A stretch of 64,000 nt of DNA from Rhodococcus coprophilus NBRC 100603 (GTDB taxonomy: Bacteria > Actinomycetota > Actinomycetes > Mycobacteriales > Mycobacteriaceae): contig NZ_BDAM01000003.1 of NCBI RefSeq assembly GCF_001895045.1, positions 372,001-436,000 on the forward strand, read 5' to 3'. The position numbers and the translations under genes are program-made. Of this stretch, positions 38,212 through 42,339 are shown in pieces. Positions within the stretch are counted from its first letter, which is position 1, and every line of letters starts with the position of its first letter. Under the pieces are notes generated by a model that did not search any database, was not told the origin of the DNA, and saw only the letters and a list, made by a program, of their open reading frames with translations.

Positions 38212-38228
38212 TCCCGCTCGGGATCAGC
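38207..38228. terminator. bidirectional terminator between pmmB and upp
   Basis: GCTGATCCC (38207-38215) and GGGATCAGC (38220-38228) form a perfect 9-bp stem with a 4-nt loop. The stop codons of both convergent genes lie within it. Confidence 0.7.
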
Positions 38229-38847
38229 GGGGACCGAACTGGCGGTCTCCCGCGTCACCGAGGCCGGGCACGATGTACTTGTTGTCGTTGAGCCCCTCGT
38301 CGACCGACGCGGTGACCAGCCGGACCGGATGCCCGGAGGCGGCCAGCGCGTCCACACCCTGCGGGGCCGCGACGACGCACACCGCGGTGATGTCGGTCGC
38401 GCCGCGCGCCACGAGCAGATCGAGGGTGTGCACCATCGAACCGCCTGTCGCGAGCATCGGATCGAGCACGAACACCGGCAAGCCGGACAGGTCTTCGGGC
38501 AGCGACTCGAGATACGGCACGGGCTCGAAGGTCTTCTCGTCGCGGGCCAGGCCCACGAATCCCACCCGCGCCTGAGGGATCAGAGCGTGTGCCTGGTCGA
38601 CCATTCCGAGTCCGGCCCGCAGCACGGGGACGAGCAACGGCGGCTGCTTCAGCCGGACGCCCTCGGTGACCGCGACCGGCGACTTGACCTCGAACTTCTC
38701 GATCGGCGCATCGCGGACCGCTTCGTAGACGAGCATCTGGGTGAGCTGGCTCAGCGCGTGCCGGAAGGCAGCATTGTCGCTGCGTTCGTCGCGGAGGGTG
38801 GCCAGAAGAGAAGCAGCGAGCGGATGGTCGACAACGAGCATGTCCAT
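38224..38847 (-). CDS. upp: uracil phosphoribosyltransferase
   Basis: 207 residues from the ATG at 38847, the same length I recall for M. tuberculosis Upp. PRPP-binding loop DPMLATGGS at 129-137, the [11 protein letters not shown] segment and the uracil-binding C terminus with [12 protein letters not shown]. It makes UMP from uracil and PRPP, completing pyrimidine salvage with cdd, deoA and add nearby. A second ATG at 38841 is possible but the -10 box supports the first. Confidence 0.95.
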
Positions 38848-38854
38848 GCAGAAA

Positions 38855-38860
38855 AGGATA
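38855..38860 (-). promoter_or_regulatory. -10 box for upp, leaderless start
   Basis: Minus strand TATCCT with 7 nt to the upp ATG and no Shine-Dalgarno. The rest of the 107-nt gap up to 38954 must also hold the promoter of the cassette at 38955; I could not identify it. Confidence 0.55.
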
Positions 38861-38954
38861 GAGCGCGCGGGGGCCGGGCCGGAACGAGGGAACCGGACGG
38901 GCGTGCGGTGCGTCGAACCCTGATGACGAATGTCCGCGCGTCGCGGCACGCGAT

Positions 38955-39365
38955 GTGACCACGGACACCGCATCGACCACGGGGGGACGGGTGCCGGAAG
39001 AACTCGGCGTGATCGGGGAGTTCGAGGGCCCACGGCACGCAGCAGGGAACGCGGCGGTCGACGCCGACACGACCTCGATTGCAGGGTTCGGGCAGGAAGC
39101 GACCGTGCTGGCAGAGCAACTGCGCAGTGCGGCACTGCACACGCGCGACGGTGATCCCACTCCGCTCGGGCCCGCATTCGGAGCGGTGGGGGCGGCGTTC
39201 GTCGCCGCGCTCGTCGCGACCCACGACGCCCACGGACGCGACCTCGAGCGACTCGGCGACGCGCTGGCCGGCATGGGCTCGGCAGCCGCGGCGTCGGCGG
39301 CGGCATACGAGCGTTCGGTTCAGGCCGTCGCGCGTCGCCTGACGGCCACGCAGGACGAGTCGTGA
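38955..39365 (+). CDS. EspC/WXG100-like helical protein
   Basis: 136 residues from a GTG at 38955. Almost entirely helical and Ala-rich; after an unstructured 35-residue head, two helices (about 40-65 and 75-130) joined by a short loop with [20 protein letters not shown] form a hairpin similar to type VII (ESX) substrates of the EspC/DUF2580 kind. There is no signal peptide. A canonical C-terminal YxxxD/E signal is not obvious: AAYERSV is the nearest and lacks the acidic residue. It overlaps the next gene by GTGA, so the two proteins are made together and may be partners. The assignment is by shape, not by clear homology. Confidence 0.7.
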
Positions 39366-40339
39366 TCACGTCCGCGGGCGCCGACCTGCTGACCGCGCCT
39401 CTACAGGAGTTGCTCGTCGCCTTCGGATCCGCGTCACCGCCGGGAGGAGACCCGGGCGCTCACGTCCGCGAGGGAGCGCGACTCGCGGAGGAGGTCCACG
39501 CCGCCGGCCGGGATGCCGTGGCGGAGCTTGCGTGGGCGTGGGCTGGGCCCGCCGCGGAGAACGCGCTCACGAGCGCCGAACGCGTGGTGTCCGACGTCCT
39601 GACCGCCGCCGATCGCGGACTCGACATCGCGGCCGTCGCACTCGAGGCCACCGTCACCGTGGTCACAGGCGCCGCCGAACTGCAACAACTCGTCGACTCC
39701 TTCCACGCTTTCGCACAGCAGGCAGCGCCCGTGGCGGGTCTGCCGCACGGTCAGCTGATGCTTCTCACCGTCGCGGTCGAGCACATCGCGGACGGCCTGC
39801 ACGTGCTCACCCGGGTGGTCTCGTCACTCGCCGACCTCACCGACCGGTTGACCGCGCTGATGCCCGATCCCGGCGGTCAGACTGCGCACTCCCCCACCGA
39901 TCCCGGAATCCAGGCGCTGACCGGTAGCCGCGCCGGGGGCACCGGAACCGAAGTGGTGCTGCCCGACGGCAGTGTGAGCGTCGCCCCCAACGCCGCCGCG
40001 GCGACGGCGGTTCGTCGCGCGCTCGACCAGCAGGGCACCCCGTACGTCTGGGGTGGCACGACGCCGGGACAGGGACTGGACTGCAGTGCTCTGACGCAAT
40101 ACGCGTACGGCGAAGCCGGTGTCGAGATCCCGCGTCTGGCACAGGAACAGGACGTCGGGCAACGAGTCGATGCCGGGTCGGTGCTGCCCGGAGACCTCGC
40201 GGTGTGGGACGGGCACGTCGCGATGGTGGTCGGCAACGGACTGATGGTGGAAGCGGGTGACCCTGTCGCGGTCACCCCGATCCGCACGGGCAACGCCGGG
40301 ATGGCATTCCAGGGCTTCTATCGGCCGACGAGTGTCTGA
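39362..40339 (+). CDS. WXG-like domain fused to NlpC/P60 (C40) peptidase
   Basis: 325 residues from a GTG overlapping the previous stop. Residues 1-165 are helical with WAWAG (58-62, a W-x-G turn); a short Pro/Gly linker is followed by an NlpC/P60 domain (about 205-325) with catalytic Cys241 in [12 protein letters not shown] and His285 in [10 protein letters not shown]. NlpC/P60 enzymes cut peptidoglycan stem peptides, so the substrate should lie outside the membrane. No Sec or Tat signal is seen; the WXG-like front may direct export by an ESX system or by pairing with the upstream protein. Confidence 0.82.
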
Positions 40340-40411
40340 GCCGCGACACCGGCCGCGAAAGGAGAAGCGCGGGACGGGAACCACGGGGGCGCCGCGTGCG
40401 TCCAACCGGCT

Positions 40412-40753
40412 ATGGACTTCACGACCGACATTCCGGCGGCCTCCCCGGTCACCGCGATCGTCCACAACCGTGCGGGCACGATCTCGGTGCGGACCACCGA
40501 CGACGGTCTTCCGGTCGAACTCCGGATCGATCCGCGCGAACTACGTTACGGCGCCGCCGCACTCGCCGACGAGATCCTGGCACTCAATCGCCGTGCCGCA
40601 CAGGAGGCGGCGGCGATCCGTCATCGGGACCTTCGCGAACAGGGCGTCCCGAGCGAGGTCGTCGACCGGATGCGCCGGCTGTCGTGCGGCGACGCGACGG
40701 CGCCGCCGTACGTCCCGCCGGGCCGGACACGACTCGAGGAGGAAGGCCGATGA
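40412..40753 (+). CDS. small conserved protein of ESX-like cassette
   Basis: 113 residues from the ATG at 40412. A short beta-rich N-terminal half (VTAIVHNRAGTISVRTTDDG, then PVELRI) is followed by a helix with LADEILALNRRAAQEAAAIR. The strand pattern resembles YbaB-like proteins, so it may be a diverged paralogue of the next gene. Its stop overlaps the ATG of that gene (ATGA). Function unknown. Confidence 0.7.
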   Translation: MDFTTDIPAASPVTAIVHNRAGTISVRTTDDGLPVELRIDPRELRYGAAALADEILALNRRAAQEAAAIRHRDLREQGVPSEVVDRMRRLSCGDATAPPYVPPGRTRLEEEGR

Positions 40754-41049
40754 GCGAACAGCAGGTGTCGGCGATCGTCGATAGCGTCCGCGGAAGACTC
40801 GATGCCCTCGAGACCACACTCGAGGGACTGCACGGCATCCGCGCCGCAGCGCACAGCCCGGACGGGCGGATCGTCGCACGCGTGGACGGGACCGGCGCAC
40901 TCGCGAACCTCCGGCTCGAGGAGGCGGCATGCCGGATGGATGCACGCGAACTCGCGGCATCGATTCTCACGACGGCCCGTGCAGCGGCGGAAGCAGCCGC
41001 GATGCAGCGGGTCGCGCTGATGGACGACCTCCGGAGCGCGCTCCGTTGA
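40750..41049 (+). CDS. YbaB/EbfC-family protein (EspL-like)
   Basis: 99 residues from the ATG at 40750. An N-terminal helix (SAIVDSVRGRLDALETTLEG), a beta-sheet (SPDGRIVARVDGTGALANLRL) and a C-terminal helix (SILTTARAAAEAAAMQRVAL) match the YbaB/EbfC fold. Members are nucleoid-associated, but versions inside ESX loci, such as EspL, act with secreted substrates. Last gene of the cassette that starts at 38955. Confidence 0.78.
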   Translation: MSEQQVSAIVDSVRGRLDALETTLEGLHGIRAAAHSPDGRIVARVDGTGALANLRLEEAACRMDARELAASILTTARAAAEAAAMQRVALMDDLRSALR

Positions 41050-41093
41050 GGTGCTCGGTGCCACCCCGCCTATATTCTCGGCGTCGACATCGC

Positions 41094-41099
41094 TAGGCT
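41094..41099 (+). promoter_or_regulatory. -10 box for Rv3311-like gene, leaderless start
   Basis: TAGGCT followed by 7 nt and the ATG at 41107; identical hexamer to the one before the DUF1707 gene at 6551. Confidence 0.55.
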
Positions 41100-41106
41100 T
41101 CCCGCC

Positions 41107-42339
41107 ATGGCTGGAGACATCGTCCCGATAGAGCTCGGTCTCACCGACGGCGACCTCGTGACCCTGTGGGCACCGCGCTGGCGTGAGGGCGACGACGAAT
41201 GGGAGGCGTTTCTCGGCCACGGGGACGACCTCTACGGATTCCCGACGGTTGCCGCGCTCGTGGCGTTCGTCCGTTCCGGCGGCGACAACGACCTTGTGGA
41301 GCATCCGGCGTGGCCCGTGGTCTCCAAGCTCGCCGCCGTCGAGTTCGAACCCGACGCCGCCCATTCGTACGACCTGATCGGCGTACCGGAACTGGCGGCT
41401 GCCGACCCCGACGCCGAATCGATCTCCGAACTGCAGGACACGTTCGACATCGTGAGCATCCTGGGCGATGTGTGCGAACTCGACGTGGTCACCAAGTTCT
41501 TCGAGCGCGCCGAGATCGACACCCTGATCCGCGACGGCGCTTCGGCGGTGGCGGGGCGTGAGGGCCGCGAGCTGTGGAACAGCGTCGGCACAGCGATCGC
41601 CGACGACTGGGACGCGGTGATCGACGCGCTCGACGCCGTGGTCAAGACGCCGGTAGTGGACGAAGCGGTCGTGGCCGAGATCGAGTCGGAACTCGTGGCC
41701 TCCGACGAGAACGAACTGGAAGCGGACGACACCGTCCAGGACGAGGTCGACAACGACGAATACGAGTTCCTGGACGAAGACGACGACGAGGACGACTTCT
41801 GGGCCTCGGTCGGCATCGACCCCATCAAGATCATCACTTCGGAAGGCACCTGGTTCACGCTGCGGTGCTACCTGGAGGACGACGCGTTGTTCCTGGGCCG
41901 CGAGGGCAGGATCTTCGTCTTCCCCTCCGAGCGCAACCTGGCGCGGTATCTGGCGGACAACCACGACCATGACCTGGCCCCGCTGGAAACCTACGAAGAG
42001 GTTCGCATCGCGGCTGTGGACGGTTCGCTCGAGGTCTCGGTCATCGACGACAACGTCTACGTGCTCACCGGCATCGCCGACGACATCACCGAGGGCGTCG
42101 CGGCGGTCGATCCGGAACAACTCGAGCTCGCTGTCGAATTGTTCACCGACGCTGCCGGTTACGCGAACGACAACTCCACGGACGCTGCGCTCGCAGGCTC
42201 GACGGAGCTGGGCTGGTTCGTCAACTACGTGCTCGAGCCCGACACGAGGCGCCTCGCTCCGAGCGCACCGTTCGACGCCGAAGCGCTCGCGTGGCGGGAA
42301 CTCGAGCGCGAGTTCGAAGCACGGCTGAACAAGTACTGA
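41107..42339 (+). CDS. acidic conserved protein, Rv3311-like
   Basis: 410 residues, rich in Asp and Glu, with no signal or membrane segment. Two similar halves appear (about 1-185 and 240-400), separated by an acidic linker (about 195-238, ending DEDDDEDDFW). In each half a strand pair plus GHGDDLYGFPTVAALVAFV (first) or GREGRIFVFPSERNLARYL (second) is followed by a YDLIGV or YVLTGI segment, which suggests an ancient duplication. Its place between upp and add and its size correspond to Rv3311. The function is unknown; a nucleic-acid mimic or chaperone is speculation. Confidence 0.85.
   Translation: MAGDIVPIELGLTDGDLVTLWAPRWREGDDEWEAFLGHGDDLYGFPTVAALVAFVRSGGDNDLVEHPAWPVVSKLAAVEFEPDAAHSYDLIGVPELAAADPDAESISELQDTFDIVSILGDVCELDVVTKFFERAEIDTLIRDGASAVAGREGRELWNSVGTAIADDWDAVIDALDAVVKTPVVDEAVVAEIESELVASDENELEADDTVQDEVDNDEYEFLDEDDDEDDFWASVGIDPIKIITSEGTWFTLRCYLEDDALFLGREGRIFVFPSERNLARYLADNHDHDLAPLETYEEVRIAAVDGSLEVSVIDDNVYVLTGIADDITEGVAAVDPEQLELAVELFTDAAGYANDNSTDAALAGSTELGWFVNYVLEPDTRRLAPSAPFDAEALAWRELEREFEARLNKY

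Follow-up and report, generated by a model that had tools for sequence, protein, structure and literature searches.

Introduction

The closest described counterparts of the locus reported here come from the ESX (type VII) secretion systems, among them PE25-PPE41 and the Esp proteins of ESX-1; in ESX-1, the YbaB-like protein EspH binds EspE, while EspD and EspL have a stabilising effect on Esp proteins (PMC6107294, PMC6319747). How proteins exported by any ESX system cross the peptidoglycan is an open question in the field. Here we describe a four-gene cassette within a 64,000-nucleotide stretch of the Rhodococcus coprophilus NBRC 100603 genome (contig NZ_BDAM01000003.1, positions 372,001 to 436,000; hereafter the window) that encodes an EspC-family protein (P1), a W-x-G domain fused to an NlpC/P60 peptidase (P2) and two YbaB-like proteins (P3 and P4). 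Overall, we believe that the cassette probably encodes an ESX substrate pair together with chaperones of its own, that ESX-4 is the most likely exporter, and that the pair delivers a peptidoglycan hydrolase. Of the ESX systems, ESX-4 is taken to be the ancestral one, and a cassette that joins a partner protein to an enzyme, and that bears an export signal in most relatives, is a concrete candidate substrate for it with a predicted activity that can be assayed.

A second described system is brought in by the neighbouring satS homologue. According to PMC6333443, SatS is an export chaperone of the SecA2 pathway for SapM, with which it interacts; SapM carries a signal sequence; in M. tuberculosis sapM lies immediately upstream of satS (Rv3311) and is co-transcribed with it; and M. 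smegmatis has satS and lacks a sapM orthologue. The first-pass annotation of the window, made from the sequence alone, had placed the cassette in the same interval as sapM, and the published gene order agrees.

Results

The predicted hydrolase and its predicted partner

At the centre of the cassette is P2, whose N-terminal domain is predicted to fold as a PPE-like bundle with the W-x-G motif in a turn between two long helices, and whose C-terminal domain is an NlpC/P60 (C40) peptidase (Table 1). The W is kept in 70 and the G in 69 of 77 aligned P2 homologues, and the catalytic Cys241, His285 and Glu297 are invariant in all 77, the window included, within a catalytic-domain alignment that holds long stretches of invariant columns. 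The first-pass annotation had correctly recognised the fusion and the first two of these residues; Glu297, which it left unnamed, is the third. The Pfam family EspA_EspE is matched by 14 of 54 P2 members at E <= 0.1, and matches of the N-domain to HAMP and chemoreceptor proteins were judged to be chance coiled-coil or helix matches. Membership of the Rip family was ruled out, the curated cut-offs being missed in each case (RipC, 69 of 425 bits; RipB, 51 of 335; RipA, 41 of 625). A Sec signal hidden behind an earlier start of gene 2 was ruled out too, as no in-frame ATG, GTG or TTG lies upstream and the N-terminus is not hydrophobic. Indeed, simple hydropathy finds no Sec- or Tat-like N-terminus and no membrane segment in any of the four proteins, in line with the annotated lack of a Sec signal.

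The identification of P1 as EspC-like holds as well. Read from 38955, its open reading frame (ORF) scores 24.7 bits against PF10824 (EspC family; Pfam cut-off 23.5), the same stretch in a six-frame search of the genome scores 19.1 bits, below the cut-off, and the family is matched by all 50 aligned P1 sequences at E <= 0.1. Against solved structures the P1 profile gives weak matches only, the best being an ESAT-6-like protein (E 0.035). The gene probably begins at GTG 38991 rather than at the annotated 38955, because its closest relative (L037) starts there.

Of 81 P1 sequences, 58 carry the canonical export signal, YxxxD/E, in exact form; in another 16 the Y is replaced by L or F and the D is kept, six have the Y without D/E, and one is gapped. 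The annotated absence of the signal is therefore right for the R. coprophilus protein, which reads YERSV in this column, and wrong for the family. The degenerate signal weighs against ESX export of the R. coprophilus pair and is a real difficulty: either the signal sits elsewhere in the P1-P2 pair, or the function is decaying in these Rhodococcus. The six sequences with Y and without D/E are all from Rhodococcus (the window, L037, L040, L041, L042 and L094), and in each of them the acidic residue has gone, yet the operon and the catalytic triad are intact. Leu in place of the signal Tyr (LTETD, LGETD or LVDTD) occurs in 13 sequences, all from Nocardia (for example L057, L065, L073 and L082).

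The degenerate motif and the lack of a Sec signal would also suit a set of proteins that stay inside the cell, P2 acting on wall-recycling peptides and P3 and P4 serving as nucleoid-associated YbaB regulators of something else; YbaB proteins of other bacteria are reported to bind DNA (cited in PMC6107294). However, a separate, full-strength YbaB is encoded elsewhere in the genome (C12:86358-86624, 111 bits). In addition, a W-x-G hairpin whose EspC-family partner shows YxxxD/E in most relatives has no role known to us besides ESX export, and we consider a purely cytosolic role quite improbable.

The YbaB-like pair

The first-pass annotation had proposed one YbaB chaperone, encoded by gene 4, and had called the product of gene 3 a small strand-helix protein. 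The family is borne out and the number is not: the P3 and P4 profiles are homologous at 96.8% probability, and on this comparison the two are paralogous YbaB-like proteins. Both R. coprophilus proteins score below the Pfam YbaB cut-off of 25.5 bits (P4, 24.3; P3, 14.9), and at E <= 0.1 YbaB is matched by 55 of 55 aligned P4 sequences and by 25 of 56 aligned P3 sequences. The P4 profile recovers solved YbaB structures (5yrx, at 4.8e-9, 1pug and 1j8b; range 5e-9 to 2e-8); its matches to HLA were judged to be chance helix matches. In Rhodococcus sp. Leaf247 a gene-3-like domain is followed by a gene-4-like one within a single ORF (L087:7026-7520), which suggests that P3 and P4 act as one unit.

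Conservation of the cassette

Gene order was compared in 80 named loci. These are the best 80 of 362 relatives, so that close relatives are over-represented, and they span Rhodococcus, Nocardia, Gordonia, Dietzia, Prescottella, Mycobacteroides, Mycolicibacterium and others. By P1 and YbaB profiles built from subsets of these same loci, P1 stands ahead of P2 in 80/80 and two YbaB-like ORFs follow P2 in 68/80, with a single, fused ORF in one locus and none in 11, eight of them from Gordonia; a count of start-to-stop ORFs within narrow bounds gives 71 P1, 76 P2 and 69 YbaB of 80. The strains with the full set of four include R. erythropolis NBRC 15567 (L072). Where the spacing of P1 and P2 was measured (67 loci), the genes overlap in 39 and are separated by a gap within 30 bp in 27. 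The neighbourhood is kept along with the cassette: upp lies on the minus strand less than 3 kb before P2 in 76 of the 80 loci, satS on the plus strand less than 5 kb after P2 in 76, and both in 74, the others being L041, L066, L096, L101, L105 and L112.

A further 14 loci from other genomes were read in addition. All eight from family f14 (L132-L137, L141 and L142) keep the order P1-P2-YbaB-YbaB, and six of them (L132-L136 and L141) run on into satS, while P1-P2 with satS and no YbaB is found in three loci of genus g42 (L143-L145) and in L140, from a relative with a small genome. We also noted P2 with no recognisable P1 beside it in L139 (genome G019), where satS is present, and in L138 (G037), where P2 stands alone. 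A literature search found no publication describing the cassette, a weak negative since subscription literature lay mostly outside its reach.

Other uses of the N-domain

The first-pass annotation had spoken of an effector. In an antibacterial effector set, P2 would be an ESX-exported toxin directed at the walls of rivals, with P3 and P4 as immunity or adaptor proteins; wall-cutting domains are common as toxin tips, and the N-domain is indeed joined to differing C-terminal parts. In L122 (3681-5339) a P2-type helical N-domain is fused to an SLT transglycosylase (41.8 bits against 21.3), so that the N-domain looks like a carrier for wall-cutting enzymes, although the 9 kb read there contain no recognisable EspC-like gene. 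A second EspC-like and W-x-G cassette occurs in R. coprophilus itself (G000:C1:489504-491068; L125 and L128), where the EspC-like protein ends in the canonical signal YENAD, its gene overlaps the next by GTGA, and the W-x-G partner has a Pro/Gly-rich tail and no NlpC domain. Across six such sister cassettes (L119, L120, L121, L123, L124 and L125), YxxxD is present in five and missing from L124.

Nonetheless, the P2 enzyme is unlike polymorphic toxins in being almost invariant, down to the triad, and in holding one fixed slot between upp and satS in most of the named loci, and P3 and P4, which carry no signal, could not protect a wall. Among 72,556 plasmid records, 650 match P2 at E <= 1e-5 and none covers 80% of it at one place, and on this ground a plasmid origin was rejected. 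An attack on other cells is thus very unlikely in our view, and an effector role is at most putative; near-invariance and a single conserved place in the chromosome fit a housekeeping wall enzyme better.

The sister cassettes L119, L120, L121, L123 and L124 belong to other genomes of the genus; beside the cassette on contig C1 lie genes whose products resemble, by eye, a radical-SAM protein and a lactate-dehydrogenase-type enzyme; and another R. coprophilus protein (L127:1290-2687) appears, again by eye, to consist of a transglycosylase-type domain followed by an NlpC/P60 domain.

ESX-4 and co-occurrence with EccB

The R. coprophilus genome contains one EccB match, and it lies inside an ESX-4 locus on the contig that also carries the cassette, starting 81 kb beyond it. 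The locus comprises EccC, EccD, a mycosin, EccB, a member of the Rv3446c family and two WXG100 proteins, all of which score above their NCBIfam cut-offs, and the EccC-type motor scores 1068 bits for EccCa and 882 bits for EccCb. The annotation had suggested an orphan cassette, and this complete locus rules that out. A published survey reports ESX-4 in all the Rhodococcus it covers, and its table appears to assign a single ESX type to three Rhodococcus genomes each (PMC4791881). Thus the three findings that the first-pass annotation had named as fatal to its proposal are all missing: there is no Sec or Tat signal, the genome does have an ESX system, and the linkage of the genes, which it wished to see followed across genomes, is kept in several genera.

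Co-occurrence was counted in 248 genomes of the order, evenly drawn, in which P2 was scored as present at E <= 1e-60 (51 genomes). EccB is present in 51/51 genomes with P2 and in 126/197 without it (Fisher 4e-9), and outside the family of R. coprophilus in 19/19 and 108/179 (Fisher 2e-4); neither test is corrected for kinship, EccB is present in all 50 sampled genomes of that family, and it does not distinguish ESX types. A further 41 of 92 P2-matching genomes, with best matches of 8.6e-37 to 9.5e-31, were left uncounted. The three of these weaker matches that reach deepest into the N-domain (G107, G138 and G266) are NlpC/P60 proteins whose N-termini are hydrophobic and signal-like, and the stretches around them contain no match to the P1 or YbaB profiles.

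The slot beside satS

The gene to the right of the cassette (41107-42339) aligns with nearly the full length of the SatS model (1-425 of 427), and its score does not reach the mycobacterial cut-off of 700 bits; its conserved position argues for orthology with satS. The cut-off is passed in 32/248 genomes, all of genus g42, which is presumably Mycobacterium, since its satS scores alone pass. We compared all 32 of these genomes, together with R. coprophilus, for what lies directly before satS. A PF04185 phosphoesterase stands there in 9/18 g42 genomes without P2 and in 0/14 with P2 (Fisher 0.0018), and the remaining nine without P2 have neither cassette nor phosphoesterase at satS. We take SapM to be a PF04185 member, and the phosphoesterase is presumably sapM. 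On these counts a single slot seems to be filled by either the cassette or the phosphoesterase, of which the cassette is the more widespread and probably the older.

The distribution suggests that in many relatives SatS, described as a SecA2 chaperone, adjoins an ESX-type cassette rather than sapM. In 43/51 genomes P2 and satS are no more than 8 kb apart, the six f14 loci that run on into satS being among these cases. Taken with this alternation and with the published role of SatS as SecA2-pathway chaperone for SapM (PMC6333443), such proximity raises a model wherein SatS, and neither the YbaB pair nor an ESX system, chaperones P2, the cassette products leave through SecA2 as SapM does, and the WxG domain is merely a partner-binding bundle. 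At the same time, P1 and P2 carry ESX hallmarks and no visible Sec signal, whereas SapM has a signal sequence (PMC6333443); 234/248 genomes have a satS match, in many cases a weak one, and most of these genomes lack P2, so satS is not dedicated to P2; and the adjacency may reflect nothing more than an old, conserved neighbourhood. We regard the SecA2 route as unlikely.

Locus layout

All four ORFs lie on the plus strand where the first-pass annotation had placed them (Table 1), with the two overlaps it had described, GTGA at 39362-39365 (genes 1 and 2) and ATGA at 40750-40753 (genes 3 and 4). In one pairwise comparison, made with Rhodococcus sp. 105337 (L037) as the closest of the named relatives, the ratio of nonsynonymous to synonymous substitution rates is 0.54, 0.19, 0.24 and 0.11 for genes 1 to 4 and 0.10 for satS; genes 2-4 are under clear purifying selection. 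A scan of 38800-41200 gave a single terminator-like site, where 0.5 would be expected, and nothing promoter-like; it is uninformative for a G+C-rich host.

Table 1. Features of the cassette and its flanks (positions in the window)
Feature	Position	Strand	Remarks
upp, uracil phosphoribosyltransferase	38224-38850	-	Pfam UPRTase 213 bits; conserved left neighbour
Gene 1 (P1), EspC-family partner, 124 aa	38991-39365	+	PF10824; start from alignment with L037
Gene 2 (P2), ORF	39362-40339	+	Pfam NLPC_P60, 63.5 bits
P2 N-terminal four-helix domain (predicted)	39362-39871	+	W60-A-G62 in turn between helices 33-59 and 63-120
P2 C-terminal NlpC/P60 (C40) peptidase	39956-40339	+	Lead-in LPDGSxxxAPN conserved; Cys241, His285, Glu297
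Gene 3 (P3), YbaB-like, 113 aa	40412-40753	+	Profile match to gene 4
Gene 4 (P4), YbaB-like, 99 aa	40750-41049	+	Pfam YbaB just under cut-off; YbaB structures by profile
satS homologue (Rv3311 family)	41107-42339	+	NF050072 473 bits, E 7e-142; conserved right neighbour

Discussion

The general pathway can be pictured by analogy with EspA-EspC and EspE-EspF and their YbaB-like helpers EspD, EspH and EspL, from which we take P1-P2 to be the exported pair and P3 and P4 its chaperone. Consider a cell in which the cassette is expressed. P1 and the W-x-G domain of P2 would pair in the cytosol, as PE/PPE or EspC/EspA do, and P3 and P4 would stabilise the pair and hold it unassembled, a role that has been proposed for EspD, EspH and EspL towards the pairs of ESX-1. 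The bundle would then be recognised by the EccC motor and the pair exported through ESX-4, whereupon the NlpC/P60 domain would cut peptide stems of the peptidoglycan outside the membrane. The likeliest use would be local remodelling of the cell's own wall, not attack on another cell, and the closest working precedent for the purpose is EssH.

A broader and distinctly tentative proposal, one we think possible and by no means probable, is that the ancestral ESX-4, in mycolate actinobacteria and their relatives, exports a peptidoglycan cutter of its own, which a heteromeric YbaB chaperone guards in the cytosol and which opens a way through the wall for the machine, as a counterpart of EssH in the type VIIa secretion systems (T7SSa). 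SatS would then have arisen as neighbour and helper of the cassette, and would have been re-used for SapM once part of the mycobacteria had swapped the cassette for sapM.

The putative ESX-4 pair can be compared with several known systems. With RipA, RipB and RipC, P2 shares the NlpC/P60 catalytic fold and the C-H-E triad, the matched RipA structures being titled as mutants of C383, H432 and E444; it differs in scoring far below the Rip family cut-offs and in showing no Sec signal. Rip proteins are Sec-exported. Plasmid-borne ESX loci of the pRAW type have NlpC/P60 enzymes beside a type VII locus, as noted in PMC13059805, whereas no plasmid record matches P2 over at least 80% of its length. 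EssH of the type VIIb system (T7SSb) of S. aureus is a dedicated type VII wall hydrolase that the machine requires to cross the wall (PMC13059805), a role that for P2 and ESX-4 is putative; EssH is, however, a CHAP enzyme, of a different class of type VII system, and is encoded in the ESS locus itself. In gene content the cassette resembles espA-espC-espD and espE-espF-espH of ESX-1, which also combine an EspC-family partner, a larger partner of the WxG superfamily and a YbaB-like chaperone. Unlike the ESX-1 Esp genes, the cassette has an NlpC/P60 domain on its large partner, two YbaB-like proteins instead of one, and ESX-4 as the only ESX system found. In position the two agree once more: espACD sits far from the ESX-1 core (PMC6107294), and the R. 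coprophilus cassette likewise stands apart from its ESX locus.
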